This document shows positions 6,486-31,623 of a stretch of 64,000 nt of DNA, piece by piece. The position numbers and the translations under genes were made by a program. The stretch is from an uncultured Thioclava sp. (GTDB lineage: Bacteria > Pseudomonadota > Alphaproteobacteria > Rhodobacterales > Rhodobacteraceae). Below the pieces are notes generated by a model. The model searched no databases, was not told the origin of the DNA, and worked only from the letters and a program-made list of their open reading frames with translations. How positions within the stretch are numbered: the first letter of the stretch is position 1; each line of letters begins with the position of its first letter. The stretch spans positions 1 through 64,000 of the forward strand of contig NZ_CAJYBT010000010.1 of the NCBI RefSeq assembly GCF_913064665.1, in the 5' to 3' direction.

Positions 6486-6490
6486 CCGCC

Positions 6491-15210: not shown

Positions 15211-16518
15211 TCAGCCGCGGAAGGCGCGGGCGAAATAGTCGCTGAGCGGCTTGATCAGATAGGCCAGCGGGGTGCGATCCTGGGTGCGGATAAACACCTC
15301 GACCGGCATGCCGGGGATCAGGGTCACATCGTCGGGCAAACGGTCGCGCTCGGTTTCACTCAGGGTGATTTCAACGCGGTAATAGCTGGCCTTCGATCCC
15401 TCATCCTGAAACGCATCCGCCGAGATTTGCACAACTTTGCCGGTCAATTCCGGCGTGGTGCGCCGATCCAGCGCCGAAAAGCGCACGCGCACGTCCTGAC
15501 CGATCCGGATCTGGTCGATATGGCTTGGCACGACCTGCGCGTGAATAACCAAGGGGCGATCCTGCGGCACGATGTACAAGATCGGCTCGGCGGGCTTCAA
15601 CACTGAGCGCGGCGCGAACACCTGCAGGCCATAGACCACCCCCGAAACCGGCGCGACGATGTCGAGCCGGTCAATCTGTTCCAACAGCGACGAGCGTTGC
15701 TCGCGCAGCTCCAACTCACGATATTGCAGGTCTTGCAACGTCGTGTTGGTCTCTTCGCGCAGCCCCGATTGTAGCTTCAGCAGTTCGATGTCGATTTCGG
15801 TCATGCGGCCCTCGGACTGCGCTTTTTGCGCCGTCAAATCGCCCAGACTGCCCTGCAACCCGGCCTGTTCGCGCCGCAATGACAGCACGCGCGAGGCCTG
15901 CGCCAGCCCCTTGTCGAGAAGGGATTGCTGATCGCTCAATTCGCTGCCGATCAGGTCGGTCTGTTCGCGCAGCGCGTCTTGCTGCGCCACGATCCCTTTG
16001 ATCTGATCTGCGATCTGGGATTTGCGTTTCGTGAGCTGGGCGATCTCGTTGGTCAAATTCCCCGCGCGCGCGGCCAGCAGCCGCTTTTGGCCCTCGATCA
16101 GACCGCGCACATCGGCGTTGTCACGCGCCGCCTGCACCAGCAGCGGATCAAAGCTGGCCTGCGCATTGCCATCGCGTTCGGCTTCCAGCCGGCCCCGGCG
16201 CGCCATCAGCTCATACAGCTCGTTCTCGGTGATCACGAGCTTGGATTTCAGCGTTGTCGCATCCAGACGCAGCAAGGGCTGGTCAGCGGCGACCATCTCG
16301 CCCTCATCGACCAAAATCTCAGAGACGACCCCGCCATCGGGATGCTGCACCACTTGGCGATTCTGATCGACCTCGATGCGTCCGTTGGCAATGACCGCGC
16401 CTGCGATATTGGTGAACGCCGCCCAGCTGCCAAAGCCGCCCAGCAGCAGAACAAGGCCCAACACCCCGATCGAAATCGGCCAGCGTGCCGACCATGCGGA
16501 TTTCTGTGCGAGAGTCAT
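15211..16518 (-). CDS. Type I secretion periplasmic adaptor, HlyD family
   Basis: The 435-aa membrane fusion protein has one N-terminal membrane anchor (ISIGVLGLVLLLGGFGSWAAF). It continues with the lipoyl half-motif GRIEVDQNRQVVQHPDGG, a long alpha-helical hairpin (about 110-290) and a beta-barrel part with IVAPVSGVVYGLQVFA and LIPGMPVEVFI. The pattern PrtE/HlyD/LapC is typical of adaptors that bridge the inner-membrane ATPase to a TolC-type channel. The ATG at 16518 shares a base with the ATPase gene's TAA (TAATG). No TolC gene lies nearby. Its likely cargo is discussed with the two DUF4082 proteins. Confidence 0.92.
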   Translation of the reverse strand: MTLAQKSAWSARWPISIGVLGLVLLLGGFGSWAAFTNIAGAVIANGRIEVDQNRQVVQHPDGGVVSEILVDEGEMVAADQPLLRLDATTLKSKLVITENELYELMARRGRLEAERDGNAQASFDPLLVQAARDNADVRGLIEGQKRLLAARAGNLTNEIAQLTKRKSQIADQIKGIVAQQDALREQTDLIGSELSDQQSLLDKGLAQASRVLSLRREQAGLQGSLGDLTAQKAQSEGRMTEIDIELLKLQSGLREETNTTLQDLQYRELELREQRSSLLEQIDRLDIVAPVSGVVYGLQVFAPRSVLKPAEPILYIVPQDRPLVIHAQVVPSHIDQIRIGQDVRVRFSALDRRTTPELTGKVVQISADAFQDEGSKASYYRVEITLSETERDRLPDDVTLIPGMPVEVFIRTQDRTPLAYLIKPLSDYFARAFRG

Positions 16519-18251
16519 TAGCGGATACCTCCCGTGCCGACGGATTGCACGATCTTGGTGCGGTTTTGCACGACTTCGCGCAACACATCATCTTTTGGAC
16601 CAAAGGCACGGACTGCGCCGTTTTCGAGCATCAGCAAGATGTTACATTCCTTGATTGCAGCGGGGCGGTGGGCCATGATCAGCACCGACTTTCCCGCCTC
16701 CTTGAAGCCCCGGATCGCCCGGTTCACCGCCGCGCTGCCCTCGCTATCAAGATTTGAATTGGGCTCATCGAGCACCAAGATCACCGGATCACCATACATC
16801 GCGCGCGCCAGACCGATGCGCTGCATTTGCCCCCCTGACAAGCGCCCGCCATTGGCTGAAACCGGGGTGTCATAGCCTTGCGGCAGTTTGAGGATCATCT
16901 CATGGGCATCGGCCTTGGTGGCCGCAGCGACCACCGCCGCCGGATCCGGCGCATGTGAAAGCCGGGCGATATTCTCGGCAATCGTGCCGTCAAATAGCTG
17001 CACGCGTTGGGGCAGATAGCCGATATGGCGCCCCAGGACATGGGGCGCAAACTGATCCAGCGTCGCGCCATCCAGCCGGATGGTTCCCGAACGCGGCCGC
17101 CACACCCCGGTGATCGCGCGCGCCAGCGTGGATTTGCCAGACCCCGAGGTGCCGATCACGCCGATAGCCTGCCCCGGCTCGACCGTGAAGCTGACCGCTT
17201 TCAACACCGGATCGCTTTCGCCCGGCGCCAAGATCGTGAGGTTTTGCACCTCAAGTCGCGCCTTGGGGCGGGGCAATTCGGTGCGTGCGCTTTCAGGGGG
17301 AACCTGTTCGAGCAGCACTTCCAGACTGCTCCAGCCCTTGCGGGCGCGCTGGATCATCGCCCATTGGCCAACGATCTGTTCCACCGGCGCCAAAGCGCGC
17401 CCCAGAAGAATTGAGGAGGCGATCATCGCCCCGGCCGTCATCTCGCCGCGCAGCACCAGATAGGCCCCAAGCCCCAGCATGGCCGATTGCAAAAACAGCC
17501 GGAACGTCTTGGTGGTAACGCTGAACGTGCCCCCCAGATCAGAGGCGCGGATCTGCGCCCCCAGCGCACGCCCACGCGCCTTGTGCCAGCGGTCAAACGC
17601 CGCGTCGCGCATGCCCATCGCCTGAACCATCTCAGCCTCAGAGCGGATCTGATTGGCCATCACCCCGGCCTGAACCGCAGCTTGGTTGGCATTCGTCAGC
17701 GAGTTGCGCGTGGCGAACTGGTTGGCCAGCGCCACCAGCACCAGCAGCCCGCCCCCCGTCAGCGCCAGCGTTCCCAGGAACGGGTGGAAGATCCAGATCC
17801 CGGCGAGAAAAAGCGGCGTCCAGGGCAGGTCGAACACGGCGGTCAGCACTGGCGATGCGATCAACCGCTGCACCGATTCCAGATCGGCAAGCCCGGTCGT
17901 TGTGCGCTCATCCGGTGCAATCGCGGATTTGCGCACCACCGCATCAAAGACGCGACGATCAAGGCGGGATTGAAACCGCGCCCCCACCCGCCCCATGACG
18001 CGCCCACGTGCATAATCCAGAATCCCCATCATGCCATAAAGAAACGCTACCAGCGCTGTCAGCGCGACCAGCGTTTCTACTGATCGGCTACCCAACACCC
18101 GGTCATAGACCTGCAGCATGTAAAGCGGCCCCGTCAGCATCAGCAGGTTCACGAAAACGCTGAACACCGCGACAAAGACGTACAGGCCCCACGAGGCCCT
18201 GCGGGCCGCGCGCAGCTCGGCTCGGCCATGAGAGGGGACTTGCTGGGTCAT
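16518..18251 (-). CDS. Type I secretion ABC transporter ATPase/permease (PrtD-like)
   Basis: The 577-aa protein has an N-terminal exporter membrane domain of about six helices (VFVAVFSVFVNLLMLTGPLYMLQVYDRVL is split by short polar turns) without a peptidase C39 domain. A nucleotide-binding domain follows: Walker A GTSGSGKST, signature LSGGQMQRIGLARA and Walker B VILVLDEPNSNLD. Length and order match PrtD/AprD exporters of RTX-type proteins. ATG 18251 was preferred over the frame start at 18389 because it has AAGGA upstream and gives the family's usual N-terminus. It is coupled to the adaptor gene. A motif related to those before the DUF4082 genes lies about 117 bp upstream. Confidence 0.92.
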   Translation of the reverse strand: MTQQVPSHGRAELRAARRASWGLYVFVAVFSVFVNLLMLTGPLYMLQVYDRVLGSRSVETLVALTALVAFLYGMMGILDYARGRVMGRVGARFQSRLDRRVFDAVVRKSAIAPDERTTTGLADLESVQRLIASPVLTAVFDLPWTPLFLAGIWIFHPFLGTLALTGGGLLVLVALANQFATRNSLTNANQAAVQAGVMANQIRSEAEMVQAMGMRDAAFDRWHKARGRALGAQIRASDLGGTFSVTTKTFRLFLQSAMLGLGAYLVLRGEMTAGAMIASSILLGRALAPVEQIVGQWAMIQRARKGWSSLEVLLEQVPPESARTELPRPKARLEVQNLTILAPGESDPVLKAVSFTVEPGQAIGVIGTSGSGKSTLARAITGVWRPRSGTIRLDGATLDQFAPHVLGRHIGYLPQRVQLFDGTIAENIARLSHAPDPAAVVAAATKADAHEMILKLPQGYDTPVSANGGRLSGGQMQRIGLARAMYGDPVILVLDEPNSNLDSEGSAAVNRAIRGFKEAGKSVLIMAHRPAAIKECNILLMLENGAVRAFGPKDDVLREVVQNRTKIVQSVGTGGIR

Positions 18252-18368
18252 CTTGGGATCATCCTTGCTGAGCGGCGGGTTGAACAGATGCGCATGAACC
18301 AGAGCGCGACGCATCCTGGATCGGGAGCTGGATCGGGGCTGCGCGCCGTGGTTGCTTGGGCTGCGGTC

Positions 18369-18381
18369 TTTGATCATGCAA
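18369..18381. promoter_or_regulatory. Weak copy of a palindrome-like motif upstream of the T1SS genes
   Basis: On the minus strand this reads TTGCATGATCAAA. It matches 10 of 13 positions of TTGCATAATGCAA, found upstream of the 1385-aa protein gene, and lies 117 bp before the ATPase start. Functional meaning is inference only. Confidence 0.3.
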
Positions 18382-18528
18382 CGCGGCATTGAACCATTGC
18401 GGCCTTGCGTGGCAGGCTATTTCCCGCCACCCGTTCGGCAAGAAGCAAGCCGATGACCGCAAAACTCGAATCGTGCTAAGGTGATCGGGCCGTCGAGCAA
18501 ACCGCCCACTGCGGCCCAACCCAGCTGA

Positions 18529-19179
18529 ATGAAACGGGATTTTTCGGTGACACGACCTAAAGTAGTTCTGATCGGCCTGAGCGGAAATACGCGCGAAATT
18601 TTCGAAGCGGTGCAGGCGCAATTCACAATCATGGCGATCTTGTCGGATGATCCCGCGCATGCCTCCGGGTTTGAGGGCATTCCGGTGGCCCCGCTGGCGC
18701 AGGCCCATCGCTTTGCCGACTCGCAATTCCTGTTCCTGATCGGCTCGCAAGCGTCCTATCTGCACCGGCGCGAGTTGATCGCGCGCCTCGGCGTCCCGCA
18801 GGATCGCTACACTCAAATCATTCATCCGCGCGCAACCGTGTCGCGCTTTGCCCGGCTTGGCGCAGGGTGCGTGCTGCATTGCGGTGTGACGCTGACCTCG
18901 AACGCGGTTTTGGGCGCGCATGTGATGGTGTTGCCCCATACGGTCATTCATCACGATGTCACGGTCGGGGACTATTCGCTGATCGGCTCGAATGTGACCA
19001 TCGCGGGGTCGGTCGAGATCGGCGAGAGCTGCTATATCAGTAGCGCCTCTTCGATCCGCAACGGCGTGCGGATCGGGGATGGCGCGTTGATCGGCATGGG
19101 CGCGAATGTGTTGAACGATGTCGCGCCCGGAGCCGTGATGGTGGGCAATCCGGCGCGCGCAATCCCACGCCGCAGCTAG
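18529..19179 (+). CDS. NeuD/PglD-like sugar O- or N-acyltransferase
   Basis: The 216-aa protein has an N-terminal Rossmann-like PglB/NeuD domain (PKVVLIGLSGNTREIFEAV) and a C-terminal left-handed beta-helix of hexapeptide repeats (from about residue 105 to ANVLNDVAPGAVMVG). The ending GNPARAIPR is typical of the NeuD/PglD/PerB group, which acetylates sialic-acid-like or amino-sugar nucleotides. A GTG at 18547 is an alternative start. It stands alone on the plus strand, facing the amino-sugar operon, so it likely modifies a product of those enzymes. Confidence 0.85.
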   Translation: MKRDFSVTRPKVVLIGLSGNTREIFEAVQAQFTIMAILSDDPAHASGFEGIPVAPLAQAHRFADSQFLFLIGSQASYLHRRELIARLGVPQDRYTQIIHPRATVSRFARLGAGCVLHCGVTLTSNAVLGAHVMVLPHTVIHHDVTVGDYSLIGSNVTIAGSVEIGESCYISSASSIRNGVRIGDGALIGMGANVLNDVAPGAVMVGNPARAIPRRS

Positions 19180-19232
19180 GGATTTGCTTCTCTTGCGGCG
19201 TGGCGTGTGCCCCCGATCAAGGCCCGGTATCA

Positions 19233-20477
19233 TCACCCCGGCTCGCGCATCGCGACCGCGTCAGAGGCAGTGTGCATCGACGCCGCTGGCACCGCCACCG
19301 GTTCGCGTCTGGGTTTGGCCGGACGGACGCCCCGGCGCGCCTTTGCCATCTCATCGCGCAGCCTGTCGGCGACGATACCGACCTCGCCATCGCTCATCTG
19401 CACATATAGCGGCAACAGGATCGCGTGATCGCGCGCCTCCTCAGAGCGCTTGAGCGAATGACGCAACTCGACATCAGCCTGCGCGGGTTCCAGATGCATG
19501 CACATGATGCCACGCCGCGTGGTCACGCCCCGATCCAGCAAGCCTTGCATCAAGGCGCGCTGATCAATCGCGCTGTCCAGTCGCACCGCATAGCTTTGCC
19601 AGTTCGAGCGCGCCCAATCGGGCTCGACCGGCGTGGACAGCCCCTCGATCCCGGACAGCATCTCGCCATAAAGCGCGGCAATCTCGCGACGGCGGCGCAC
19701 GATTTCATCAAGCCGCCCAAGTTGCACCCGCCCGACAGACGCCTGAATATCGGTCATGCGATAGTTATAGCCGCGCTCGATATAGCTTTCGAACACGACA
19801 CTTGCGGCGGCGTGACGCGCGGTGTCGGAAATCGACATCCCATGCTGACGCCACAGCCGGAATTTCGCATCATATTCGGCGTTGCGCGTGGTCAGCATCC
19901 CGCCCTCGCCGGTGGTGATGACCTTGCGCGGATGAAACGAGAAGCAGGCGATATCGCCATGCGGCGCGCCGATCTTGCCCCATTTCCCGTCAACGCGGAT
20001 TTCCGAGCCGATGGCGCAGGCTGCATCCTCGATCAGCGGCAGATCATGGGCGCGCGCAATCGCGAGCAGCGCCGTCAAATCGCAGGGCATCCCGATCTGA
20101 TGCACACACAAGATCGCCTTGCTGCGCGGCGTGATCGCCTGCGCGACCGCCTCGGGATCAATGTTATAGCCGTCCGCCTCGATATCAACGAACACAGGCA
20201 TCGCGCCGCATTGCCGGATCGCGTTGCCGCTGGCGATGAAGGAATGGCTGACGGTGATCACCTCATCGCCAGGGCCCACGCCCAGCGCCTGACAGGCCAA
20301 ATGCAGCGCAGTGGTGCAGTTGGACACAGCCACCGCATGGGGCGCGCCTACGAGGGCGGCGAAATCGGACTCGAACGCGGCGACCTGCGGCCCTTGTGAG
20401 ACCCAGCCCGACAGGACGGCGGCATGGGCGGCATTGGCCTCGGCCTCGCCCAGAAACGGTTTTGCAATCGGTATCAT
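19233..20477 (-). CDS. DegT/DnrJ/EryC1/StrS sugar aminotransferase
   Basis: The 414-aa PLP enzyme has the fold-type I features of the family: VAVSNCTTALHLACQAL near residue 55, the Asp-containing LIEDAACAIGS, and the catalytic lysine in CFSFHPRKVITTGEGG. It transfers an amino group to a keto-sugar nucleotide. The ATG at 20477 overlaps the epimerase stop (ATGA); the frame runs 16 codons further but into that gene. About 35 C-terminal residues rich in Arg/Pro/Ala go beyond the usual end. It is the last gene of the coupled five-gene operon and may act on a 4-keto or 3-keto sugar made by its partners. Confidence 0.9.
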   Translation of the reverse strand: MIPIAKPFLGEAEANAAHAAVLSGWVSQGPQVAAFESDFAALVGAPHAVAVSNCTTALHLACQALGVGPGDEVITVSHSFIASGNAIRQCGAMPVFVDIEADGYNIDPEAVAQAITPRSKAILCVHQIGMPCDLTALLAIARAHDLPLIEDAACAIGSEIRVDGKWGKIGAPHGDIACFSFHPRKVITTGEGGMLTTRNAEYDAKFRLWRQHGMSISDTARHAAASVVFESYIERGYNYRMTDIQASVGRVQLGRLDEIVRRRREIAALYGEMLSGIEGLSTPVEPDWARSNWQSYAVRLDSAIDQRALMQGLLDRGVTTRRGIMCMHLEPAQADVELRHSLKRSEEARDHAILLPLYVQMSDGEVGIVADRLRDEMAKARRGVRPAKPRREPVAVPAASMHTASDAVAMREPG

Positions 20478-21475
20478 GCGAACATCTCCCGTGCTTGCGT
20501 GGCCATGGTTTCCCCCTGCCACCATGCGATCAGATCGTGCAGCCCGATGTCGACGGGGATCTGAGCCGTAAAGCCAAGCTGTTTGGCGGCCAACGCGCCC
20601 GAGGCAAGACGCCGCGGCACCGGGTTGACGTTGCGCTCGGGCGCATGGGTTGGCACCAAATCGGGGCGCCCCATCCCGGCCGACAGCAGTTTCGCCAGTT
20701 CCAGCAGCGAGGTTTCGGTTTCGCTGCCGACGTTGAACACCGCATCCGACACCGGCACGCTGGCCGCCAGAATATTGGCCCGCGCCACGTCGCGCACGTC
20801 GATCATATCCATCGTCTGAAGCCCGTCGCCGAACACGATCGGGGGTTCGCCATTGGCGATCCGCTCCATCCAGCGCACCATGACCTCGGTGTAGCGACCA
20901 TGCAGGTCCATACGCGGGCCATAGACGTTGAAATAGCGCAGCGCGACATAGTCCAGCCCATACATATCGTTGAACGAGCGCAGCATCCCCTCGCCAAAAG
21001 CCTTGGCTGCACCGTAAAGCGTGCGATTGGGATAGGGCGGTTCGGATTCGGTGGTCGGGAAATTCTCGGCCAAGCCATAGATCGAGGCCGAAGACGCCAT
21101 CACCACCTTACGGGTGCCTGCACGCTGACACATCTGCAACAGATCAAAGGTCGCCTGCACCATCACCGACATCGCCTCATCGGGTTCGGCAGCGCAATGG
21201 GTGATGCGCAAAGCGGCCTGATGAAACACGGTATCGGTCCCCGCAACAAGGCGCTCCATCAGATCGCTGTCGCGAATATCGCCCTCGATCAGCTTGACCC
21301 GCTTGTCGCCCAGCGCCGTTGCAAGATTTTCGCGCCGACCCCGCACCATGTTATCAACCACGATGATCTCGCTGCAATTCTCGGCCAGCAGAAGATCGAC
21401 GATATGCGACCCGACAAAGCCACTTCCGCCGGTCACCAAAACGCGCTTGTTCGCCAGAATACCTTGAGTGCTCAT
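20474..21475 (-). CDS. NAD-dependent sugar epimerase/dehydratase (SDR)
   Basis: The 333-aa extended SDR begins RVLVTGGSGFVGSHIVDLLL and has the SSASIYG and YGAAK catalytic motifs, plus RYFNVYGPRMD. This resembles the UDP-GlcNAc/UDP-glucuronate 4-epimerase group (WbpP-like), but an unusual dehydratase cannot be excluded. ATG 21475 has AAGGA seven bases upstream and starts four bases after the stop of the aminotransferase gene before it. It supplies a nucleotide sugar to, or modifies a product of, the aminotransferases. Confidence 0.88.
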   Translation of the reverse strand: MSTQGILANKRVLVTGGSGFVGSHIVDLLLAENCSEIIVVDNMVRGRRENLATALGDKRVKLIEGDIRDSDLMERLVAGTDTVFHQAALRITHCAAEPDEAMSVMVQATFDLLQMCQRAGTRKVVMASSASIYGLAENFPTTESEPPYPNRTLYGAAKAFGEGMLRSFNDMYGLDYVALRYFNVYGPRMDLHGRYTEVMVRWMERIANGEPPIVFGDGLQTMDMIDVRDVARANILAASVPVSDAVFNVGSETETSLLELAKLLSAGMGRPDLVPTHAPERNVNPVPRRLASGALAAKQLGFTAQIPVDIGLHDLIAWWQGETMATQAREMFA

Positions 21476-21479
21476 GGGA

Positions 21480-22601
21480 CTATCCTTGCATTTCCATTGG
21501 CGCCATCGCGCCGGCAAATCGGTTCACCGACTCCACGATATGATCGACATGCTTGTCCGTGAGATCGGGATGGATCGGCAGCGAGACGGTGGTGTCGGCA
21601 TAGGCCTCGGCCACCGGGAAATCGCCGCGCGAATAGCCCATGCGGGCATAGGCGGGTTGCAGATGCACCGGCAACGGGTAGTGCACACTGGTGGGCACGC
21701 TGGCGGTTTCCAGATTGGCTTGGAACTCGGCGCGATTGGCGACACGAATGGCATAGACATGACCGACATGATCCTCGCCAAACGGCCCCTTGGCGCGTGA
21801 AATGTCAGGCGCGAGCCCCTCGTGATACATATTGGCGATCCGGCGCCGCGCAGCATTCCACGCATCCAGATGGCGCAGCTTTACGTCAAGGATCGCGCCC
21901 TGCACCGCATCCATGCGGAAATTGTAGCCCTCGACCACATGGTTGCCTTTGCCTTTTTGGCCCCAGTCGCGCAGGCAGCGCACCTTCTCATCTAACTCTG
22001 CCGAGCTGGTGACAATCGCGCCACCCTCACCACATGCGCCAAGGTTCTTGCCGGGATAAAAGCTGAAACAGCCGATATCGCCGAATGTACCCGCACGCTG
22101 CGTGCCCCGCTGCGCGCCATGCGCCTGCGCGGCGTCTTCGATCACCAGCAAGCCATGACGGCGCGCAATCGCGACGATGGCCTCCATATCGGCCAACCGA
22201 CCGTGCAAATGCACCGGCAAGATCGCGCGGGTGCGTGGCGAAATCGCGGCTTTGATCCCGCTTGGGTCCATGTTCCAGGTCTCGGGATCGATATCGACCA
22301 GCACCGGGGTTGCACCCGTATAAAGAATGGCCGCGATCGTGGCGACGAAGGTGGAGGGCGTGGTGATGACCTCATCGCCCGGCCCGATCCCGGCAGCCAA
22401 CAACGCCAGATGCAGCGCCGAGGTGCCACTGCTGACACCAATCGCAGACCCCGCGCCACAATAGAGCGCGAAGTTCTCTTCAAAGGACTCGACCGGCTCG
22501 CCCAGCACATAATTCCCGCTGCGCAAGACCTGCAGCACGGCCTCTTCGAGCTCGGGGGCGATGGCGCGATACTGGGCGCGAAGGTTCAGGAACGGGATCA
22601 T
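21480..22601 (-). CDS. DegT/DnrJ/EryC1/StrS aminotransferase, WbpE-like
   Basis: The 373-aa PLP enzyme starts IPFLNLRAQYRAIAPELE. It has the substrate motif VGVSSGTSALHLALLA-like (here IGVSSGTSALHLALLA), VIEDAAQAHGAQ, and the catalytic lysine in CFSFYPGKNLGACGEGG. Close relatives (WbpE, WlbC) aminate UDP-2-acetamido-3-oxo-glucuronate. Its ATG overlaps the stop of the oxidoreductase gene (ATGA). Together with the WbpB-like and WbpD-like genes upstream this is the known B-E-D trio for 3-amino groups on UDP-GlcNAc-uronate. Confidence 0.9.
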   Translation of the reverse strand: MIPFLNLRAQYRAIAPELEEAVLQVLRSGNYVLGEPVESFEENFALYCGAGSAIGVSSGTSALHLALLAAGIGPGDEVITTPSTFVATIAAILYTGATPVLVDIDPETWNMDPSGIKAAISPRTRAILPVHLHGRLADMEAIVAIARRHGLLVIEDAAQAHGAQRGTQRAGTFGDIGCFSFYPGKNLGACGEGGAIVTSSAELDEKVRCLRDWGQKGKGNHVVEGYNFRMDAVQGAILDVKLRHLDAWNAARRRIANMYHEGLAPDISRAKGPFGEDHVGHVYAIRVANRAEFQANLETASVPTSVHYPLPVHLQPAYARMGYSRGDFPVAEAYADTTVSLPIHPDLTDKHVDHIVESVNRFAGAMAPMEMQG

Positions 22602-23617
22602 GACGCCTCTCTTTTCTGGCCAAGTTCGACGGGAAAGCCCCGACGCGTTGTGGAAAGGGTTGCCGCCGCGAGCAGTTCGACCACCCGCAGCCCGCCGACC
22701 CCATCGGTCAGAGGCGTGGCTTTGGTGTCGATGCAGCGTGCGAATTCCTGAACTTCGGTGACCAGCGCCTCCTTCGAGGACAGCGCGGGCGCACGCATGT
22801 CACCCAAGCGATACGAGACCAGCGGCTCATAGCGATCAACCCCGGGGGCAGCGCCGCGGTCATAGACCTTGACCTTCTCGCTGGTCTGCATGTCGTCATA
22901 GATCACCATACGCTGGCTGCCACCGATCACGGTCTGGCGGATCTTGACCGGAGCCAGCCAGTTCACGTTGAGATAGGCCATCACCCCGTCGTCATAATAG
23001 ATCGACAGATGCGCCATATTGGCCGGGCTGCCCGCGATGCAGGTCGCCGCACTGGCCGAAACCGCAATCGGGCTGGCCCCGAGAAGGTGGTCGAGGATAG
23101 CAATGTCATGCACCGCGAGATCCCAGATCACATCGACATCGCGCTGGAAAATCCCAAGGTTCACCCGCGTGGAGTCGTAATAATACATCTTGCCGAGTTC
23201 GCCCGATGACATCAGCTCTGAAATCTTCTGCACCGCTCCGGTATAGATGAAGGTGTGATCGACCATCAGGATCACGCCTTTATGGGCGGCCGCTTCGACC
23301 AGTTTTGCCGCGCGCAAGGGCGTGTCGGCCATCGGCTTTTCGACCAGCACATGCTTGCCCGCCTGAATGGCCGCCATTGCCAGATCGTAATGGCTGGCGA
23401 CGGGCGTGGCGATCATCACCGCATCGACTTTGGGATCCGCGATCATCTCATAGATATCGGTGCTCAGGCGGGCCGCCGGGTGGCGCTGTGCTGCGCGCCC
23501 CAAGGCCTTGCTGTCACGATCCGCGATCATCTCGACGCGCGCACAGCCCGATTCCGAGACCGCACGGGCGAGGTTGGGGCCCCAATAGCCGTATCCTGCG
23601 ACTCCTACGTTGATCAT
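22598..23617 (-). CDS. Gfo/Idh/MocA family sugar dehydrogenase, WbpB/WlbA-like
   Basis: The 339-aa protein starts MINVGVAGYGYWGPNLAR, an NAD-binding Rossmann motif, and has the family's EKP lysine/proline motif in LVEKPMADT. DLAVHDIAILDHLLG carries the conserved Asp and His of the active site. WbpB/WlbA enzymes oxidise C3 of UDP-GlcNAc-uronate. ATG 23617 has GGAGG seven bases upstream and overlaps the acetyltransferase stop (ATGA). The longer frame to 23800 lies inside the upstream gene and was rejected. Confidence 0.9.
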   Translation of the reverse strand: MINVGVAGYGYWGPNLARAVSESGCARVEMIADRDSKALGRAAQRHPAARLSTDIYEMIADPKVDAVMIATPVASHYDLAMAAIQAGKHVLVEKPMADTPLRAAKLVEAAAHKGVILMVDHTFIYTGAVQKISELMSSGELGKMYYYDSTRVNLGIFQRDVDVIWDLAVHDIAILDHLLGASPIAVSASAATCIAGSPANMAHLSIYYDDGVMAYLNVNWLAPVKIRQTVIGGSQRMVIYDDMQTSEKVKVYDRGAAPGVDRYEPLVSYRLGDMRAPALSSKEALVTEVQEFARCIDTKATPLTDGVGGLRVVELLAAATLSTTRRGFPVELGQKREAS

Positions 23618-24201
23618 GTCCGGTCCTCCGGTTGCTGTGACGAATGTGTCTTTGAAGGGGATTGGCCGCTGCCTTGCGCAGATGGCACATCCCCGATGAT
23701 GCGCGCGGGCACGCCCGCCACGACGGTGCGCGCGGGCACGTTGCGCGTGACCACGGCCCCCGCGCCGATCAAAGCTCCCGGGCCAATCGAGATGCCGCAA
23801 AGAATGGTCGCATTGGACCCGATGGACGCGCCGCGCCCGATCACAGTCTCAAGGCATTCCCAATCCTGCGCACCTTTCAGCGAGCCGTCGGGATTGGTGC
23901 TGGCGGGATACATATCATTGGTGAACATCACGCCGTGGCCGACGAAGACCTCATCTTCAAGGATGACGCCGCTACAGATGAAACTGTGCGAAGACACCTT
24001 GCAGCGCGCTCCGATCCGGGTGCCTGACTGGATCTCTACGAACGGGCCAATCTGGGTGTGACTGCCAATGCTACAGCCATAGATGTTCACAAGATCAGGG
24101 TGCGTGATCTTTACGTCTTTGCCGAGAGAACAATTCACGATTGGCACATCACTGATCCGTTGCTGGGCCGCAGGGTCTGACGAGAGAGCCACTGGCAGCA
24201 T
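23614..24201 (-). CDS. WbpD/WlbB-like UDP-amino-sugar N-acetyltransferase
   Basis: The 195-aa left-handed beta-helix protein has hexapeptide repeats through residues 25-165 and the loop MFTNDMYPAS, typical of WbpD/WlbB. It ends VVTRNVPARTVVAGVPARIIG. These enzymes acetylate the 3-amino group of UDP-2-acetamido-3-amino-glucuronate. The ATG has AGGGA upstream. It is the first gene of the coupled operon that runs left to the second aminotransferase. About 20 hydrophilic residues extend past the usual C-terminus. Confidence 0.9.
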   Translation of the reverse strand: MLPVALSSDPAAQQRISDVPIVNCSLGKDVKITHPDLVNIYGCSIGSHTQIGPFVEIQSGTRIGARCKVSSHSFICSGVILEDEVFVGHGVMFTNDMYPASTNPDGSLKGAQDWECLETVIGRGASIGSNATILCGISIGPGALIGAGAVVTRNVPARTVVAGVPARIIGDVPSAQGSGQSPSKTHSSQQPEDRT

Positions 24202-24780: not shown

Positions 24781-24793
24781 TCGCAATATGCAA
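24781..24793. promoter_or_regulatory. Palindrome-like motif upstream of the beta-helix protein gene
   Basis: The plus strand reads TCGCAATATGCAA; its complement TTGCATATTGCGA matches 11 of 13 positions of the TTGCATAATGCAA palindrome before the next DUF4082 gene. It lies 92 bp before the start codon. A binding site for a shared dimeric regulator is inferred, not shown. Confidence 0.4.
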
Positions 24794-24811
24794 TTGATCG
24801 AAGCAAAAGAT

Positions 24812-24869
24812 CTTTCGGCCGATGCCACTACTTCAAAAGAAGTAGCCCCACAGAACGCAAGGCCGAAAG
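24812..24869 (+). promoter_or_regulatory. Nested stem-loop in the leader of the beta-helix protein gene
   Basis: CTTTCGGCC at 24812-24820 pairs with GGCCGAAAG at 24861-24869. Inside it, CTACTTC at 24828-24834 pairs with GAAGTAG at 24839-24845 around an AAAA loop. The outer stem ends six bases before the GGAGG at 24876-24880, so the structure sits where it could affect translation or mRNA stability. There is no T-run, which argues against a terminator. Confidence 0.55.
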
Positions 24870-24885
24870 CCCATTGGAGGCGAAC

Positions 24886-27165
24886 ATGACTGTTTACTAT
24901 GTCGACACGAACGGCAACGACAACGCGAACGGCAGCTCAGGCTCTCCGTTTCGCACCATCAACCAGGCGCTCAATGCCAATCTCAACCCTGGAGATGAGA
25001 TTGTTGTGCGCCCTGGAACCTATAACGAAGCGCTCAATATCGACCAAGGTGGCTCGGCGGCAGGCGACGTCACCATTCGCGCAGAAACCCCCGGCACAGC
25101 CCTGATCCGTCCCCCCTCAGGGTCGTGGAACGCGATCAGCGTGAATGCGAACTATGTGAAGATCGAGGGCTTTGACATCGCCAACGCCAATGGCGACGGG
25201 ATCGAGGCCAACAGCGTCCATCACATCACCATTGCCGACAATATCGTGCACAACAACGCCGAGTCGGGCATCCAGTTCAACTACTCGGAATTCATCACCG
25301 TCGTCGGCAACGAGACCTATGGCAACGCCTCGTCGGGTTGGTTTTCGGGTATCTCGATCTATCAAAACCGCAATGTCAGCGGCGATACGACGACGCCCGG
25401 ATATCGCACGATCATCAAAGACAACATCACCCATGACAACGTAACGCAAAGCGGTGCGCATACCGATGGCAACGGCATCATCATCGATGATTTCCAAAGC
25501 ACCCAAACCTCCGGTTATCCGAATTACACCTACCCCACGCTGGTCGAGAACAACGTCTCTTACGGCAATGGCGGCAAGGGTATTCAGGTCACCTGGAGCG
25601 ACTATGTGACGGTGAGCAACAACACCGCCTATCACAACAATGTCGATCTGCAGAATGACGGCACCTGGCGTGGCGAAATCTCGAATGCGCAGTCGAGCAA
25701 CAACACCTTCGTCAACAACATCGCCGTGGCCGATCCCAGCATCAATGGCAATAACACCGCGATCGATAACAACTCGTATGGTGGCTATTCCAACGACAAT
25801 GTCGTCTGGCAAGACAACGTGCTGTATAATGGCACGGACGGAAAGCTCTCGGTCTCGACGGATGGCGGCAATGCCGCCCCAAGCGCGGCTGATGGCAACC
25901 TAATCGGCGTCGATCCGCAATTCGTCGATCCCGAGAATGGCGATTTCAGCCTTGCCTCGGGCTCGGCCGCGATTGATCTTGGCGCCTCTGTAGGGGGCTC
26001 TGACTCGGTTGTTTCGCCCCCCAGCACCCCAGACCCTGTCGTCACCCCCGACCCCGTCGTGACACCCGACCCGGTACCAGCGCCTGGTACACCCGCAGTC
26101 GAAAACACGGCCCCCGTGGCGCATGACGATATCAACTTTGAGACCACGCCAACCACGCCCTTGGTCTTGAAAGAGGCGCAACTGCTGTCCAATGACACGG
26201 ATGCGGATGGCGATGTTCTGGTGTTGACCAATATCGTCGGCACCACGAAGGGCAGCGCGGTGATGAACGATCAGCACGAGATCACCTTCACGCCCGACAG
26301 CACGGCCAGTGGCACGGCAAGCGTGACCTATCGTGTGTCTGATCAGCAAGGCGGCACGGATACCGCAACGGCCTTTATCGACATCACCGCAGCTTCGGCA
26401 CCCACGACGCCCGATACCACCTCCCCTGCCGCCGATGACGCGCTTTACAGCGTCTGGTCGGCGTCGGACACACCTGCTGTCACCGCAGAGAACGACCATA
26501 ACTCGGTCGAGCTGGGGATGCGCTTTGAGGTCACTGCCGATGGCGAGATCGATGCCGTGCGCGTCTATCGCGGCGAGGGCAACACCTCGACGATGCCCGC
26601 CACGCTATGGGACGCCGATGGCAACAAGATCGCCACGGCAACCCTGTCGGATACCGGAACAGCGGGCTGGCAACAGGTCGCCTTTGACACCCCGGTGCAG
26701 GTCTCGGCGGGCGATAGCTATGTGATCTCGTATCACGCCCCGCAAGGCCAATACGCGGTGAGCCAGAACTACTTCGACGATACCATGTCGACGGGTCCGA
26801 TCTCGACCGAGGCCAATGCGGGCGTCTATAGCTACGGCTCACAATCCGCACTGCCGACCCAAAGCTACCACGCCAGCAACTACTGGGTGGATGTGGTCTT
26901 TGACGCCGGCAACGGAGTGGACGCCAACGCCGATGAGTTTGTGTTCACGCCGGACACGCAAAGCGCTGTGGCTTCCAACCTGTCCGCCGCACCTTTGGAC
27001 GTGGCAGCACCCGCAACGGATGTCGCGGCTGCGACCCATGATGCTTCATCCGTCGACCCGGCCACGATTGACCCCGCCGCAGCAGATAGCCTGCCTGCGC
27101 TTGAGACCTCTCATGTCTTTGGGCACCATTCTGGCTGGTCGTTCTGGGGCGACATGGCAAGCTGA
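24886..27165 (+). CDS. Secreted beta-helix protein with DUF4082 domain
   Basis: ATG 24886 was chosen for GGAGG five bases upstream. The 759-aa product starts TVYYVDTNGNDNANGS, a DUF1565-type start of right-handed beta-helix proteins. PbH1-type coils rich in Asn follow (about 60-360), then a PDPVVT repeat linker (about 375-400), a cadherin/Big-like domain (405-502, with LSNDTDADGD), and one DUF4082 domain (about 518-675, ending SNYWVDVVFD). The tail has ADEFVFTPD and is Ala/Asp rich. There is no Sec signal peptide, so type I secretion is likely. The beta-helix could bind, cleave or epimerise polysaccharide; no catalytic residues could be assigned. Confidence 0.85.
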   Translation: MTVYYVDTNGNDNANGSSGSPFRTINQALNANLNPGDEIVVRPGTYNEALNIDQGGSAAGDVTIRAETPGTALIRPPSGSWNAISVNANYVKIEGFDIANANGDGIEANSVHHITIADNIVHNNAESGIQFNYSEFITVVGNETYGNASSGWFSGISIYQNRNVSGDTTTPGYRTIIKDNITHDNVTQSGAHTDGNGIIIDDFQSTQTSGYPNYTYPTLVENNVSYGNGGKGIQVTWSDYVTVSNNTAYHNNVDLQNDGTWRGEISNAQSSNNTFVNNIAVADPSINGNNTAIDNNSYGGYSNDNVVWQDNVLYNGTDGKLSVSTDGGNAAPSAADGNLIGVDPQFVDPENGDFSLASGSAAIDLGASVGGSDSVVSPPSTPDPVVTPDPVVTPDPVPAPGTPAVENTAPVAHDDINFETTPTTPLVLKEAQLLSNDTDADGDVLVLTNIVGTTKGSAVMNDQHEITFTPDSTASGTASVTYRVSDQQGGTDTATAFIDITAASAPTTPDTTSPAADDALYSVWSASDTPAVTAENDHNSVELGMRFEVTADGEIDAVRVYRGEGNTSTMPATLWDADGNKIATATLSDTGTAGWQQVAFDTPVQVSAGDSYVISYHAPQGQYAVSQNYFDDTMSTGPISTEANAGVYSYGSQSALPTQSYHASNYWVDVVFDAGNGVDANADEFVFTPDTQSAVASNLSAAPLDVAAPATDVAAATHDASSVDPATIDPAAADSLPALETSHVFGHHSGWSFWGDMAS

Positions 27166-27200
27166 TCGACGCCACGCCCAAGGCGTAGCACGCAATCCCG

Positions 27201-27230
27201 ACGCGTCCGGCTTTTGCCGGGCGCGTTTTT
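27201..27230 (+). terminator. Intrinsic terminator after the beta-helix protein gene
   Basis: ACGCGTCCGGC and GCCGGGCGCGT form an 11-bp stem with one G-T pair around a TTTT loop. TTTT follows directly. It lies 35 bp after the stop, so the 1385-aa protein gene likely has its own promoter. Confidence 0.85.
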
Positions 27231-27334
27231 CGTTCTGGCCCCCCTCGCCTTTTGACGCCCTGAGCCGGCTCCCAACCCGCCCTTTGATCCGCGCAATCGT
27301 CAATCCGAAGATCGGCGCGCGCGCCCACCCCCAT

Positions 27335-27347
27335 TTGCATAATGCAA
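27335..27347. promoter_or_regulatory. Perfect TTGCATAATGCAA palindrome
   Basis: TTGCAT and ATGCAA flank one central A, 118 bp before the start of the 1385-aa protein gene and downstream of the terminator at 27201-27230. Similar sequences precede the beta-helix protein gene and the type I secretion genes. It is a candidate operator or activator site. Confidence 0.45.
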
Positions 27348-27465
27348 CGATCAATCGGTGAGGAAGAATCAGCCGTTCGGTGAGTATTCCCACGACGCGA
27401 TCGCGCGCAGACTGTGGCTCGATAGGGCTGATTTCCGGCCAGACGCAGAAAAAGGGCGACACGTC

Positions 27466-30400
27466 ATGGCAGACAACCCGATTGTTATCGAAAATCAGAA
27501 ACCCGGCACCGCGCGCGCGATCTGGGATGCGCCTGCAAGCAACCAGATCGAAGGGTTCGCGACCGATATCAGCGTCGATACGGGCGATGAAATCTCGTTC
27601 AAGATCAACGTGAACGCCGCTGACGGGGTCGATGTGCCCTATCACATCGAGATTTATCGCCTGGGCTATTATGGCGGCGATGGCGCGACGCTGGTCACCA
27701 CGATCAACGGCCTTGTCGGCAACGCACAACCCGACCCGATCACCGATGATCGCGGGCTGGTCGATGCCGGAAACTGGAGCGAATCGGCCTCGTGGCTGAC
27801 GCCAGAGACCGCCGTGTCGGGCGTCTATCTGGCCAAGCTGGTGCGCGACGATACCGGAGACACCAACCAGATTCCGTTCATCCTGCGTGAGGATGATCTG
27901 CGTGCAGATGGCAGCCGCAGCGATATCGTGCTGCAGACCTCGGACACGACATGGCAGGCCTATAACGGTTGGGGCGGCAACAATGGCGAGGTCGCGGGCA
28001 ATTTCTATGGCGGCTATGCGGACGCACCCCCGCCGCCCGAAGATGCTGGCCCGTTCGGTGCCGATCGCGCCTTTGCGCTCTCTTATAATCGCCCGATCAT
28101 CACACGTGACGGTGGCGGCTATGCATCGGGTCCGCAGGACTATCTGTTTGGCGCCGATTACGCGGCGATCTACTGGCTTGAAGAGAATGGCTATGATGTC
28201 AGCTATATCTCGGGGGTCGACACGGATCGGCTTGGCCCGGGCGCGTTGCTGGGGCATGAGGCCTATATCTCGGTCGGGCACGACGAATACTGGTCGGGCG
28301 ATCAGCGCGACAATGTCGAGGCAGCACGCGATGCGGGGGTGAACCTGCTCTTCTGGGGCGGCAATGACGTTTACTGGAAAACCCGCTACGAGCCCAGCAT
28401 CGACGGCACGGACACCGATTACCGCACGCTGATCACCTATAAGGAAACCTGGGCGAATTATTCGCTTGCGGCGGGCCCGGATGACTACGCCAATATCGAC
28501 CCCTCCAACGAGTGGACGGGAACTTGGCGCGATCTGCGCTTTGTTGATGCGGTGGATGCGCAGGGCAATCCGACGGCCGAGGGCGCGATCCCTGAAAACG
28601 CGCTGACGGGCCAGTTGTTCATCGGTGATGGCGGCGTGTCTGATGTGGGCCTTGATGTGCCGCAGGAATTGTCCGGGCTTCGGCTGTGGCGCGATACCTC
28701 GGTTGCGGGGGTAGGCGCGCAAGACCTTTCGCCTGCGATTATCGGCTATGAATGGAACACCGTGCCCGCAGATGAATATCGCCCCGCCGGGCTGATCTTG
28801 CTGTCGAGCACCGAGGTGGCGTGGGATGAAATCCTTGTCGATCAGGGCAGCCGGACGGCTCCGGGCACTGGCACGCACAGCCTGTCGCTGTATCGCGCGC
28901 CAAGCGGGGCGCTGGTCTTTGGCGCAGGCACCGTATTCTGGACCTGGGGTCTGAGCGACGAGCATGACTCCTCGCCCTATGGCGGCAATATCGAAAACGC
29001 AGCGCTGCAACAATTCACCGTCAACCTGTTTGCCGATATGGGCATCCAGCCCGGTGTGTCCGATCTGGTGCTCGCCTCGCAAGGTTTGGTGCGCGCAACG
29101 GCCTCGACCGACACGGTGGCGGCCACCGCCACGCTTGACGATTTGCCCAATGAGGTCGTTGCCCTCTCGCCCTACCTCATCACCGGCACGGCGACCGATG
29201 ACGACGGCAATCCGCTGACCGATGACGGGCAAGTCGCGATGGTCGAAGTCTCGTTTGACAACGGCGTGACGTGGCGACCCGCCTCGGGGTTCAGCACGTG
29301 GAGCTATGAATGGACGCCCCAGCAAGAGGGCAGTTTCCAGATCGTGGCGCGCGCGATTGATGACAGCTTGAACATCCCCTCATCGGTCGGGTTGGCCTCG
29401 GATGTGGTCACGGTGACCCCGGCCCCCTTGCCCGAGACGTTCTCGTTGTTTGAGGGCGCGCCGATCACCCCGCAGGCGCAGAACGATGGCGCATCACTGG
29501 AACTTGGCATGCGCTTTGCGCCAAGCCAAAGCGGGATCATCACCGAGCTGCATTATTTCCGCGCCCTCAGCGATTCCGATGATACCGACCTGCGCGATGG
29601 CCATTTGTGGGACGCGAATGGCAACCTGCTGGCGACCGTAAGCTTCACCTCGGTGCCCGGCCAAAGCGGTTGGCAAACGGCCGCGCTGTCGGCCCCCGTC
29701 ACCGTGATCGCGGGCACGACCTATACCGCCTCCTATCACACCGAAAATTTCTATGTCGGAACGGCGGGGTTCTTTACCAGCGATTTCAGCGATCCCTATG
29801 ATCTGTTGACCGCGCCCTCTGGCTCGAACGGTGTCTATGCCTATAGCGTCACGCCCGTTGTGCCCGAAGGGTCGTATGAGGCGACGAATTACTGGGTCGA
29901 TGTGACCTATCAGGTCGGTGTTCCGGGCAATGCGGCCCCGGTATTTACCTCTGATAGCGGGTTCAACATGATCGAGAACCAGATCCTTGCTGCGATCTTG
30001 GGCGCAGACGATCCCGATGATGATCCGCTGACGTTCTCGATAGCGGGCGGAGCCGATGCGGCCCTGTTCTCGATTGGCTCAAGCAACGGCGCGCTGTCTT
30101 TCCTGACAGCCCCCGATTTTGAGGCCCCGGGCGATGTGGGCGGGGACAATGTCTATGACCTGCTGGTCAGCGTCACCGATGGCATCACGGACCCGGTCAT
30201 CCAGGCCATCCAGATTGCGGTGGGCGATCAAGTCAACGAATCGCCATCATCCAATCTGTATTCCCTGTTCAACGAGGGGGTGGTGTCGGCCACTACGATC
30301 AACGATTCCTCAACGGTCGAGTTGGGAATGCGGTTCACCCCGACCCAGACTGGCACGATCACCGAATTGCGCTATTTCCGCTCGGTTGGGGATTCCAACG

Positions 30401-31623
30401 ATACCGACCTGCGCGATGGGCATTTGTGGGACGCGAATGGCAATCTGTTGGCCAGCGTGCAATTTGACTCCGCCCCCGGAGACAGCGGCTGGCAAACAGT
30501 GGCCCTGTCCTCTCCCATCCTTGTGAGCGCGGGGCAGACCTATACCGCCTCGTATCGCACAGCGGATAACTATGTCGCATCGCAGGGCTATTTCACCACC
30601 GATGTGACCGATGCGTCTGGCAATCTGACCGCGCCCGGGGTGGTCAATGGCGTTTATTCCTATGGCAGCGCGCTCAGCGTGCCAACGGCAAGCTATAACT
30701 CAAGCAATTATTGGGTGGATGTCGGGTTTGATCTGAACGTTCCGGCCAATGAGGCGCCTGTCATCACCTCGCAAGCGGCCTTTGATGCGGCGGAAAACCA
30801 GACCAGTGCCGGGGTAATCACCGCGACAGATCTTGATGGCAATACGCTGAGCTTTGCGATTGCGGGGGGAGCGGATGCGGCGCGCTTTGGTATCGACGCG
30901 CAAAGCGGTGCGCTCAGCTTCCTGTCCAAGCCCAATTTCGAACTTCCCTCCGATGCCGGGGCCGACAATATCTATGATGTGACCGTCAGCGTGTCTGACG
31001 GGATCGCGCCTGCCGTGACGCAAGCGGTGCAGGTCACGGTGACCGATGTCGAACCCGAAACCGCCCCGACATTTGCAACCCTCTTTGAGGCAAGCGACGC
31101 CCCCGCCGCGACGATCACAAGCGAGGCAACCGATTACGAGCTGGGGGTGAAATTCACCGCCAATTCAGCGGGCGAAGTGACCGAGCTGCGCTATTTCCGA
31201 GGTGCAGCAGATGCGGGCGACACCGATCTGCGCACGCTCAATCTTTGGGATAACAACGGGGTCAATCTGGGCTCTGTCACGGTGCAATCCGATCCGGGTG
31301 ACTCGGGCTGGCAGGTCGGCGCGCTGGCGACGCCCATCGCCTTGACGCCGGGGGCCAGCTATGTGGCGTCTTACGGCACGACGCAGAACTATGTCGCGAC
31401 CAACAACTATTTCGACACGGGCCATGACGGGACCGATGGGCTTCTCAGCGCTCCGGGCGGAAGCAACGGGGTGTTTGCAGCCAATACCACCGGGATCTTC
31501 CCGACCCAAAGCTGGGCGTCGTCGAATTACTGGGTGGACGTCGGGTTCACACCGGATTTGCCCGAGGATGAGTTCATCTTTGCCCTCGATCCGGCCCCGG
31601 CTTCGGGTGACTTGCTGTTCTAA
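27466..31623 (+). CDS. 1385-aa modular secreted protein: DMFase-beta-like domain, cadherin-like and three DUF4082 domains
   Basis: ATG 27466 has AAGGG upstream. Residues 1-540 resemble the N,N-dimethylformamidase beta-subunit C-terminal family (FKINVNAADGVDVPYHIEIYR, TWQAYNGWGG, SVGHDEYWSGDQR, NLLFWGGNDVYWKTR). An Ig-like domain follows (about 545-650), then three DUF4082 domains (657-815, 930-1090, 1202-1363) separated by two cadherin-like domains (823-921, 1096-1195). The tail EDEFIFALDPAPASGDLLF resembles a type I secretion end, and there is no Sec signal. Enzyme activity is unproven. The role may be in matrix binding or turnover of the polysaccharide made by this locus. Confidence 0.85.
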   Translation: MADNPIVIENQKPGTARAIWDAPASNQIEGFATDISVDTGDEISFKINVNAADGVDVPYHIEIYRLGYYGGDGATLVTTINGLVGNAQPDPITDDRGLVDAGNWSESASWLTPETAVSGVYLAKLVRDDTGDTNQIPFILREDDLRADGSRSDIVLQTSDTTWQAYNGWGGNNGEVAGNFYGGYADAPPPPEDAGPFGADRAFALSYNRPIITRDGGGYASGPQDYLFGADYAAIYWLEENGYDVSYISGVDTDRLGPGALLGHEAYISVGHDEYWSGDQRDNVEAARDAGVNLLFWGGNDVYWKTRYEPSIDGTDTDYRTLITYKETWANYSLAAGPDDYANIDPSNEWTGTWRDLRFVDAVDAQGNPTAEGAIPENALTGQLFIGDGGVSDVGLDVPQELSGLRLWRDTSVAGVGAQDLSPAIIGYEWNTVPADEYRPAGLILLSSTEVAWDEILVDQGSRTAPGTGTHSLSLYRAPSGALVFGAGTVFWTWGLSDEHDSSPYGGNIENAALQQFTVNLFADMGIQPGVSDLVLASQGLVRATASTDTVAATATLDDLPNEVVALSPYLITGTATDDDGNPLTDDGQVAMVEVSFDNGVTWRPASGFSTWSYEWTPQQEGSFQIVARAIDDSLNIPSSVGLASDVVTVTPAPLPETFSLFEGAPITPQAQNDGASLELGMRFAPSQSGIITELHYFRALSDSDDTDLRDGHLWDANGNLLATVSFTSVPGQSGWQTAALSAPVTVIAGTTYTASYHTENFYVGTAGFFTSDFSDPYDLLTAPSGSNGVYAYSVTPVVPEGSYEATNYWVDVTYQVGVPGNAAPVFTSDSGFNMIENQILAAILGADDPDDDPLTFSIAGGADAALFSIGSSNGALSFLTAPDFEAPGDVGGDNVYDLLVSVTDGITDPVIQAIQIAVGDQVNESPSSNLYSLFNEGVVSATTINDSSTVELGMRFTPTQTGTITELRYFRSVGDSNDTDLRDGHLWDANGNLLASVQFDSAPGDSGWQTVALSSPILVSAGQTYTASYRTADNYVASQGYFTTDVTDASGNLTAPGVVNGVYSYGSALSVPTASYNSSNYWVDVGFDLNVPANEAPVITSQAAFDAAENQTSAGVITATDLDGNTLSFAIAGGADAARFGIDAQSGALSFLSKPNFELPSDAGADNIYDVTVSVSDGIAPAVTQAVQVTVTDVEPETAPTFATLFEASDAPAATITSEATDYELGVKFTANSAGEVTELRYFRGAADAGDTDLRTLNLWDNNGVNLGSVTVQSDPGDSGWQVGALATPIALTPGASYVASYGTTQNYVATNNYFDTGHDGTDGLLSAPGGSNGVFAANTTGIFPTQSWASSNYWVDVGFTPDLPEDEFIFALDPAPASGDLLF

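Follow-up and report, generated by a model that had tools for sequence, protein, structure and literature searches.

Two DUF4082 proteins beside an exopolysaccharide locus of Thioclava as predicted non-RTX cargo of type I secretion

Large proteins of Rhizobium have been linked to type I secretion systems (T1SS). Krehenbrink and Downie (2008, PMC2275737) reported that pRL90140, a beta-helix RTX protein of 79.0 kDa with six TPT repeats, is absent from supernatants of a prsD mutant. The same paper describes pRL90159 and pRL90161, proteins of 179 and 184 kDa with a repeat of about 140 amino acids (aa) and no classical RTX repeats, whose genes lie just upstream of bltDE; BltDE was proposed there to secrete both. 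The dependence of pRL90140 on PrsDE is counted again in PMC9298526, and a 2024 review (PMC10925705) restates the assignment of pRL90159/161 to BltDE, with no new data in the passage concerned. Here we describe a comparable arrangement in DNA of an uncultured Thioclava sp. (assembly GCF_913064665.1, contig NZ_CAJYBT010000010.1, positions 1 to 64,000, the whole of which is called the window). An exopolysaccharide (EPS) locus of the window contains a T1SS pair, formed by an ATP-binding cassette (ABC) transporter and a HlyD-type membrane-fusion protein, and adjoins the genes of a 759-aa beta-helix protein and a 1385-aa protein, both with DUF4082 domains.

The stretch of plasmid pRL9 of R. leguminosarum 3841 used for comparison (NC_008379.1, 140-185 kb) holds EPS genes, the same block of sugar genes as the window, and a HlyB-like ABC transporter with a HlyD protein. 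It also encodes a beta-helix protein of 745 aa, which has RTX repeats as well as a (TPT)n run, and two DUF4082 proteins lacking RTX repeats (1728 and 1774 aa, computed masses 178.6 and 183.9 kDa), with a CobW-type GTPase gene after each of these two. From size, repeats and position, we identify the 745-aa protein as pRL90140 and the DUF4082 pair as pRL90159 and pRL90161. The computed mass of the 745-aa protein is 75.3 kDa and the reported one 79.0 kDa, a gap that perhaps comes from a different start.

By blastp (E 1e-8 or better), 17 of the 21 window proteins have a match among 26 pRL9 proteins. The likeness covers the decarboxylase, the WecB/TagA/CpsF protein, the transferases, the ligase/polymerase and the sugar block (41-73% identity), the OPX protein (25%), and the placing of non-RTX DUF4082/DMFA2 proteins beside a T1SS pair. 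The head of the window's beta-helix protein is 71% identical over 375 aa to that of the pRL9 beta-helix RTX protein, and in a tblastn search it matched 22 plasmid records of Rhizobium, with identities of 69-72% for most of them. The 1385-aa protein shares 40% identity over 1393 aligned positions and 50% over 837 with the two pRL9 non-RTX DUF4082 proteins. On the other hand, BltDE is HlyB-like with a Peptidase_C39 match, whereas the exporter of the window is of PrtD type, and its ABC protein is only 28% identical to BltD. The pRL9 beta-helix protein has RTX repeats where that of the window has cadherin and DUF4082 domains. The pRL9 DUF4082 genes are each followed by a CobW-type gene, whereas no match to a CobW-type protein was found in the window. 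The pRL9 DUF4082 proteins end in QLAA and the 1385-aa protein in DLLF.

The PrsDE exporter of Rhizobium is presumably of the PrtD class. Its Rap/Ply cargo is described as lacking a Sec signal, as several times cadherin-like and as acting on EPS (PMC9298526), in all of which it resembles the window proteins as read here; the families differ, except for the beta-helix head. The RTX exoproteins of PrtD-class systems have a terminal motif of an acidic residue and hydrophobic residues (PMC2642768), found also on the 1385-aa protein and many homologues, but the window proteins have no HemolysinCabind repeats.

The exporter pair and its predicted cargo

The features that carry the argument, with their positions in the window, are the following.

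15211..16518, minus strand: T1SS membrane-fusion protein of HlyD type (TIGR01843, 355.9 bits, cut-off 208.65)
16518..18389, minus strand: T1SS ABC transporter (permease-ATPase) of PrtD type (TIGR01842, 665.1 bits, cut-off 510.15; tree)
24886..27165, plus strand: 759-aa protein with beta-helix, Cadherin_5 and DUF4082 domains, predicted T1SS cargo 1 (Pfam, hydropathy, pRL9 head match)
26932..26946, plus strand: DEFVF peptide, residues 683-687 of the beta-helix protein, after DUF4082
27466..31623, plus strand: 1385-aa protein with DMFA2_C, three DUF4082 and cadherin domains, predicted T1SS cargo 2 (Pfam)
27961-28287: candidate iron site Y166, Y207, H272 and E274 of the 1385-aa protein (residues 166-274)
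31567..31581, plus strand: DEFIF peptide, residues 1368-1372 of the 1385-aa protein
31606..31620, plus strand: GDLLF C-terminus of the 1385-aa protein, PrtD-class terminal motif, likely export signal

By their match to these models, the genes at 16518-18389 and 15211-16518 encode a complete PrtD-class ABC and HlyD pair, which lies 6.5 kb from the beta-helix gene. Both DUF4082 proteins are very probably non-RTX cargo of type I secretion, because RTX-bearing homologues share their heads, a likely relative is reported to depend on prsD for export, T1SS genes recur as neighbours, and neither protein has a Sec-like N-terminus. Export through this very pair is plausible, and for cargo status and export through the neighbouring PrtD/HlyD pair taken together we estimate a probability of roughly 0.58. 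A first-pass annotation, made from the sequence of the window, had put forward this relation between exporter and cargo; the cargo half of it is well supported, while the assignment to the neighbouring pair stays at plausible.

A profile search of the genome gave four DUF4082 matches, all within these two proteins: one in the 759-aa and three in the 1385-aa protein (Pfam). A simple hydropathy rule found no Sec-like hydrophobic N-terminus on either, and was positive for the OPX protein of the locus. The Pfam search gave no match to RTX repeats (HemolysinCabind) in either protein, and the 37 PF00353 matches of the genome are every one on contigs other than that of the window. Thus the shared DUF4082 domains, the lack of Sec signal peptides and of RTX nonapeptides, and the PrtD/HlyD pair in the same EPS locus, all noticed in the first-pass annotation, are confirmed by these searches. 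RTX repeats are present in homologues with the same architecture as the 1385-aa protein, and RTX-bearing homologues with the same heads exist for both DUF4082 proteins. For the beta-helix protein, a comparison with solved structures gave weak matches only (best E 0.015).

The same hydropathy rule, with fragments kept in, scored Sec-like N-termini in none of 50 close DMFA2/DUF4082 homologues (set A), in 5 of 121 beta-helix homologues and in 42 of 96 proteins of a comparison DUF4082 set. In addition, MCA2328 of Methylococcus is a DUF4082 protein listed with signal SPI, so that, together with those 42 proteins, it indicates that DUF4082 alone is no marker of type I export. The RTX proteins of the same genome were tried as a standard for export signals and set aside: of seven repeat-bearing open reading frames (ORFs), one has a typical end (ASDVYFS), the others are atypical, and several appear by eye to be Sec- or membrane-targeted.

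Neighbourhoods of related genes elsewhere were compared as well. HlyD occurs in 15 of 41 chosen loci (40 genomes), against 0.58 expected from genome-wide counts. In a comparison of named records, in which 80 loci were kept from 158 relatives (28 of them shorter than 15 kb), an ABC gene stands next to HlyD in 21 of the 80. Ten of these are from Rhizobium, four from Bradyrhizobium, three from Neoroseomonas, and one each from Reyranella, Methylobacterium, a Hyphomonadaceae bin and a Rhizobiales genome; clustered in so few genera, the loci are not independent. In Bradyrhizobium the pairs are encoded on the strand opposite to the cargo gene, at a distance of about 2.4 kb (L045). Ten ABC proteins were typed, nine from the loci and one paralogue from our own genome: L041 and L045 exceed the PrtD cut-off and L056 the HlyB cut-off, and for six (Neoroseomonas, Rhizobium, Methylobacterium) the HlyB model is the best but under its cut-off. 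PrtD-type ABC proteins adjoining DUF4082 genes fall in three separate places in a tree of 72 sequences and other DUF4082-adjacent ones are HlyB-like, which argues for repeated independent pairing. A special ABC clade for DUF4082 cargo was considered and rejected, since genomes with and without DUF4082 interleave in the tree.

Tails and C-termini of the two proteins

The pattern DEF[VIL]F occurs twice in the window (six-frame open stretches of 20 aa or more), once in each DUF4082 protein. These peptides had been taken for acidic endings resembling type I signals of RTX proteins. They are real and recur in homologues, but they are not endings: 72 residues remain after DEFVF in the beta-helix protein and 13 after DEFIF in the 1385-aa protein, so both are internal. 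A looser DEF-F form was found in the tails of 9/45 DMFA2/DUF4082 and 5/12 beta-helix/DUF4082 proteins and in 0/64 of the comparison set, after rows without a recognisable tail (up to 160 residues) had been dropped (5/50, 109/121 and 36/100, respectively). With this recurrence, DEF-F is hardly due to chance.

It is nevertheless very improbable that export is signalled by the DEF-F peptides behind the last DUF4082. They are conserved in the Thioclava relatives of both proteins and stand at the very end in two homologues (P0040 and P0284), but in 12 of the 14 homologues having one the peptide is internal, as in both window proteins. The known protease-class signal is described as a free C-terminus in which hydrophobic residues come after an acidic one and where one added residue impairs secretion, although in the Serratia lipase study the terminal motif is given as not essential (PMC2642768). 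The extreme C-terminus, rather than DEF-F, is the commoner conserved feature of these tails: the terminal motif, scored as [DE] plus three hydrophobic residues at the extreme C-terminus, is present in 24/46 members of set A without RTX repeats, against the 9/45 with DEF-F.

The 1385-aa protein ends in GDLLF, an acidic residue with three hydrophobic ones, which fits the PrtD-class motif. The motif is also found in 3/4 members of set A with RTX repeats, in 68/72 beta-helix homologues with RTX repeats and 12/49 without, in 22/687 of the other ORFs neighbouring in the loci, and in 11/98 non-RTX rows of the comparison set (shuffle mean 1.9). When the count is restricted to non-RTX tails that extend 10 residues or more beyond the NYWxD landmark, it is present in 23/37 of set A and 0/20 of the comparison set; rows without a usable landmark were dropped (2/46 and 27/98, respectively). 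Among short-tailed comparison rows, 9/51 carry the motif owing to the last strand of the DUF4082 domain itself.

The 80 named loci contain 91 DMFA2-type ORFs, of which 22 are cut at the locus end. Of the 69 uncut ones, 14 end in [DE] plus three hydrophobic residues, 43 in QL[AVT][AG] and 12 otherwise (3 with masked tails). The QL[AVT][AG] end is conserved mainly in Rhizobium, Bradyrhizobium and Neoroseomonas (L042-L103), and it perhaps represents another class of type I signal. There is no clean mapping of this end to the class of exporter, as Rhizobium and Neoroseomonas have HlyB-like neighbours and Bradyrhizobium PrtD-type ones.

The route of export weighed against its alternatives

In the preferred reading, both proteins would exit in one step through the PrtD/HlyD pair and a TolC-type channel encoded elsewhere. 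The genome has one TolC-type outer-membrane factor, an unlinked open frame with two OEP matches (G000:C49:12478-13635). The chains would be threaded unfolded through ABC, HlyD and TolC, with the extreme C-terminus instead of the internal DEF-F as signal, and would fold outside via the cadherin-like and DUF4082 domains. There, the proteins may act on the polysaccharide that this locus produces, by binding or editing it. The exporter would be a general, family-wide PrtD-type pump that is sited in the EPS locus in three Thioclava genomes, with a HlyB-like pump holding the corresponding place in Rhizobium.

Several observations weigh against this reading. The beta-helix protein ends in GDMAS, which fits a looser pattern but not the strict terminal motif, and this motif is missing in 37 of 49 non-RTX beta-helix homologues. 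Mutation of bltD at the matching Rhizobium locus is reported to have caused no visible change (PMC2275737), although pRL90159 and pRL90161 may have escaped notice on the gel shown there. The genome has three PrtD-type ABC proteins over the cut-off, that of the window and two on contigs C27 and C13. None of 14 other Rhodobacterales loci fetched, some of them ended by contig ends, has the ABC and HlyD pair, so that the window is the sole case seen in its order. The two further Thioclava drafts have the pair among EPS genes, with contig ends lying between it and the cargo genes. T. indica carries this ABC and a protein of the 1385-aa type, and a search of its draft gave no beta-helix/DUF4082 gene. 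The group of the window's ABC (53-70% identity, E <= 1e-170) occurs in 34 of 45 family genomes of other genera, none of them with DUF4082, which indicates a general exporter and not a dedicated one. A sugar-block aminotransferase has the same distribution in Thioclava as the ABC and DUF4082 genes (at least 94% identity in the same three genomes, at most 47% elsewhere), so the EPS locus appears to come and go as a unit. A further point, the CobW-type genes beside many relatives, is taken up below.

The first-pass annotation had suggested a search for co-occurrence of the ABC and DUF4082 genes. The match in the genus is exact, with the ABC at 91% identity or more in 3 of 16 Thioclava genomes, precisely those holding DUF4082. 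As proof of pairing between exporter and cargo it was rejected, because linkage explains it, as the aminotransferase indicates, and the ABC group is common in family genomes without DUF4082. Genomes with DUF4082 proteins and no such exporter were to count against the idea; the 40 DMFA2/DUF4082 genomes tested (nearly all alphaproteobacteria by name) all have a T1SS adaptor over the cut-off. This is weak evidence, since DUF4082-free genomes have PrtD-type ABC proteins too, as do 13/13 of the other Thioclava genomes, and the DUF4082 domain itself occurs in Sec-type proteins.

It is possible, if doubtful, that type I export of the two proteins runs through a different general pump of PrtD type, on contig C27 or C13, with the EPS-locus pair serving chiefly for other cargo. 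The scattered PrsDE substrates of Rhizobium are a precedent, pRL90140 being reported as a user of prsDE though bltDE sits on the same plasmid, and the two further PrtD-type ABC proteins would supply the route. Among genomes with DMFA2/DUF4082 genes, 14 of 19 have an ABC of 56-91% identity, and none of the cargo loci fetched outside Thioclava holds a window-type ABC; in Jannaschia it is found on the contig of the cargo locus at a distance of about 215 kb, and in Salipiger at about 595 kb. No recognisable cargo was seen at five of the ABC neighbourhoods read. Against this alternative, the pair is inside the EPS locus in all three Thioclava genomes having it, a position observed only in these Thioclava; no other candidate cargo was seen between the pair and the two DUF4082 genes; and genomes G108, G113 and G114 have one PrtD-type ABC, of the window's group, and one HlyD over thresholds. 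As for the other two PrtD loci, contigs C13 and C27 have no PF00353 match. Two large ORFs lie directly upstream of the PrtD/HlyD pair on C13 (L104, G000:C13, 4907-8768) and are possibly its non-RTX cargo.

The other alternative concerns the 1385-aa protein only, and depends on its DMFA2 region. In the PDB, a profile of 21 relatives matched N-acetyl-(R)-beta-phenylalanine acylase (E 3e-15) and chains of dimethylformamidase (DMFase; E 5e-5 and 1.3e-4). CobW-family proteins are metal chaperones, and a CobW/CobW_C GTPase gene is found at most 2.5 kb away from a DMFA2/DUF4082 gene in 39 of the 80 loci, being a commoner neighbour than the exporter (examples in alphaproteobacteria are L036:8719-9975, L041:8655-9986 and L143:31582-32766). 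In DMFase the iron is held by Y399, Y440 and E521, and H519 is needed (PMC7686228). The spacing of 41 between Y166 and Y207 equals that of Y399 and Y440, and H272-x-E274 corresponds to H519-x-E521, residues being assigned by spacing; each of the four is at least 90% conserved among the 21 rows. These residues suggest that the 1385-aa protein is a working metal amidohydrolase with a probable iron site. An AlphaFold model of the region (mean pLDDT 54) is too poor to place the site, and its best Foldseek matches are again the acylase and DMFase. The DMFase large subunit and the acylase (PDB 6lvb, 8huy) share the DMFA2_C domain with the window protein, in which, unlike these enzymes, DMFA2 is fused to DUF4082 and cadherin domains and encoded in an EPS locus. 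The CobW neighbour could mean cytoplasmic loading of the metal, a poor fit with export of an unfolded chain. The protein might then be a cytoplasmic or otherwise routed metalloenzyme, into which a CobW-type GTPase inserts the metal, with the nearby exporter simply part of the content of an EPS island. The nearly invariant candidate ligands are in line with this. We consider it quite unlikely, as the window has no match to those CobW proteins, the cadherin and DUF4082 domains point to a location outside the cell, RTX repeats occur on homologues of the same architecture, and the 1385-aa protein has the terminal motif.

Remaining genes of the locus and meaning of the arrangement

The EPS locus fills bases 1-24 kb of the window. 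Its other genes are listed below, with identities to pRL9 counterparts. Those within 1102..14934 that have such a counterpart take their names from it.

18529..19179, plus strand: hexapeptide-repeat acyltransferase, between exporter and sugar block (Pfam Hexapep)
19233..20525, minus strand: DegT aminotransferase 1, sugar block (Pfam; 64%)
20474..21517, minus strand: NAD-dependent epimerase/dehydratase, sugar block (Pfam; 59%)
21480..22601, minus strand: DegT aminotransferase 2, sugar block (Pfam; 57%)
22598..23800, minus strand: Gfo/Idh/MocA oxidoreductase, sugar block (Pfam; 50%)
23614..24201, minus strand: acyltransferase, sugar block (NCBIfam hexapeptide-transferase matches below their cut-offs; 61% to the pRL9 acyltransferase)
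within 1102..14934: UDP-glucuronate decarboxylase-like gene (73%)
within 1102..14934: WecB/TagA/CpsF-type gene (57%)
within 1102..14934: O-antigen ligase/polymerase-like gene (47%)
within 1102..14934: glycosyltransferases, two with counterparts at 60% and one with no match in the pRL9 stretch compared
within 1102..14934: sugar transferase (41%)
within 1102..14934: OPX-like gene (25%)
within 1102..14934: Wzz-like gene, no match in the pRL9 stretch compared

One further gene within 1102..14934, which we take to be ManC-like, and a Crp-type gene also had no blastp match among the 26 pRL9 proteins. This Crp/Fnr-type regulator gene (31672-32400) points toward the 1385-aa gene, and a relative is found at the same spot in Jannaschia (L027:15059-15907) and in genome G005 (L021:18378-19169). 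DMFA2/DUF4082 genes are accompanied by the sugar block (19233-24201) also in Jannaschia, Loktanella, Neoroseomonas and Rhizobium, and at least three of the block's four core genes are present in 14 of the 80 loci.

A wider and rather unlikely proposal is that of a kit for matrix editing. An EPS locus for an acylated amino sugar would be combined with a type I-exported, iron-dependent DMFA2 amidohydrolase on a DUF4082/cadherin scaffold, which would trim N-acyl groups of the polymer; the recruited pump would vary, and the C-terminus (DLLF-like or QLAA-like) would be adapted by lineage.

The arrangement was already proposed in 2008 for the Rhizobium relatives, and Thioclava is a new example of it. 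It provides a case, open to experiment, of large type I cargo that lacks RTX repeats and is linked to exopolysaccharide synthesis. Homologues that share a head but differ in whether they have RTX repeats form natural pairs, which could show what the repeats add to export. A swap of exporter class in a similar locus would show that the identity of the cargo is conserved and not the orthology of the exporter. In addition, the arrangement points to a possible role of the widespread DMFA2/DUF4082 proteins, most of which are named by domain in the sources consulted.

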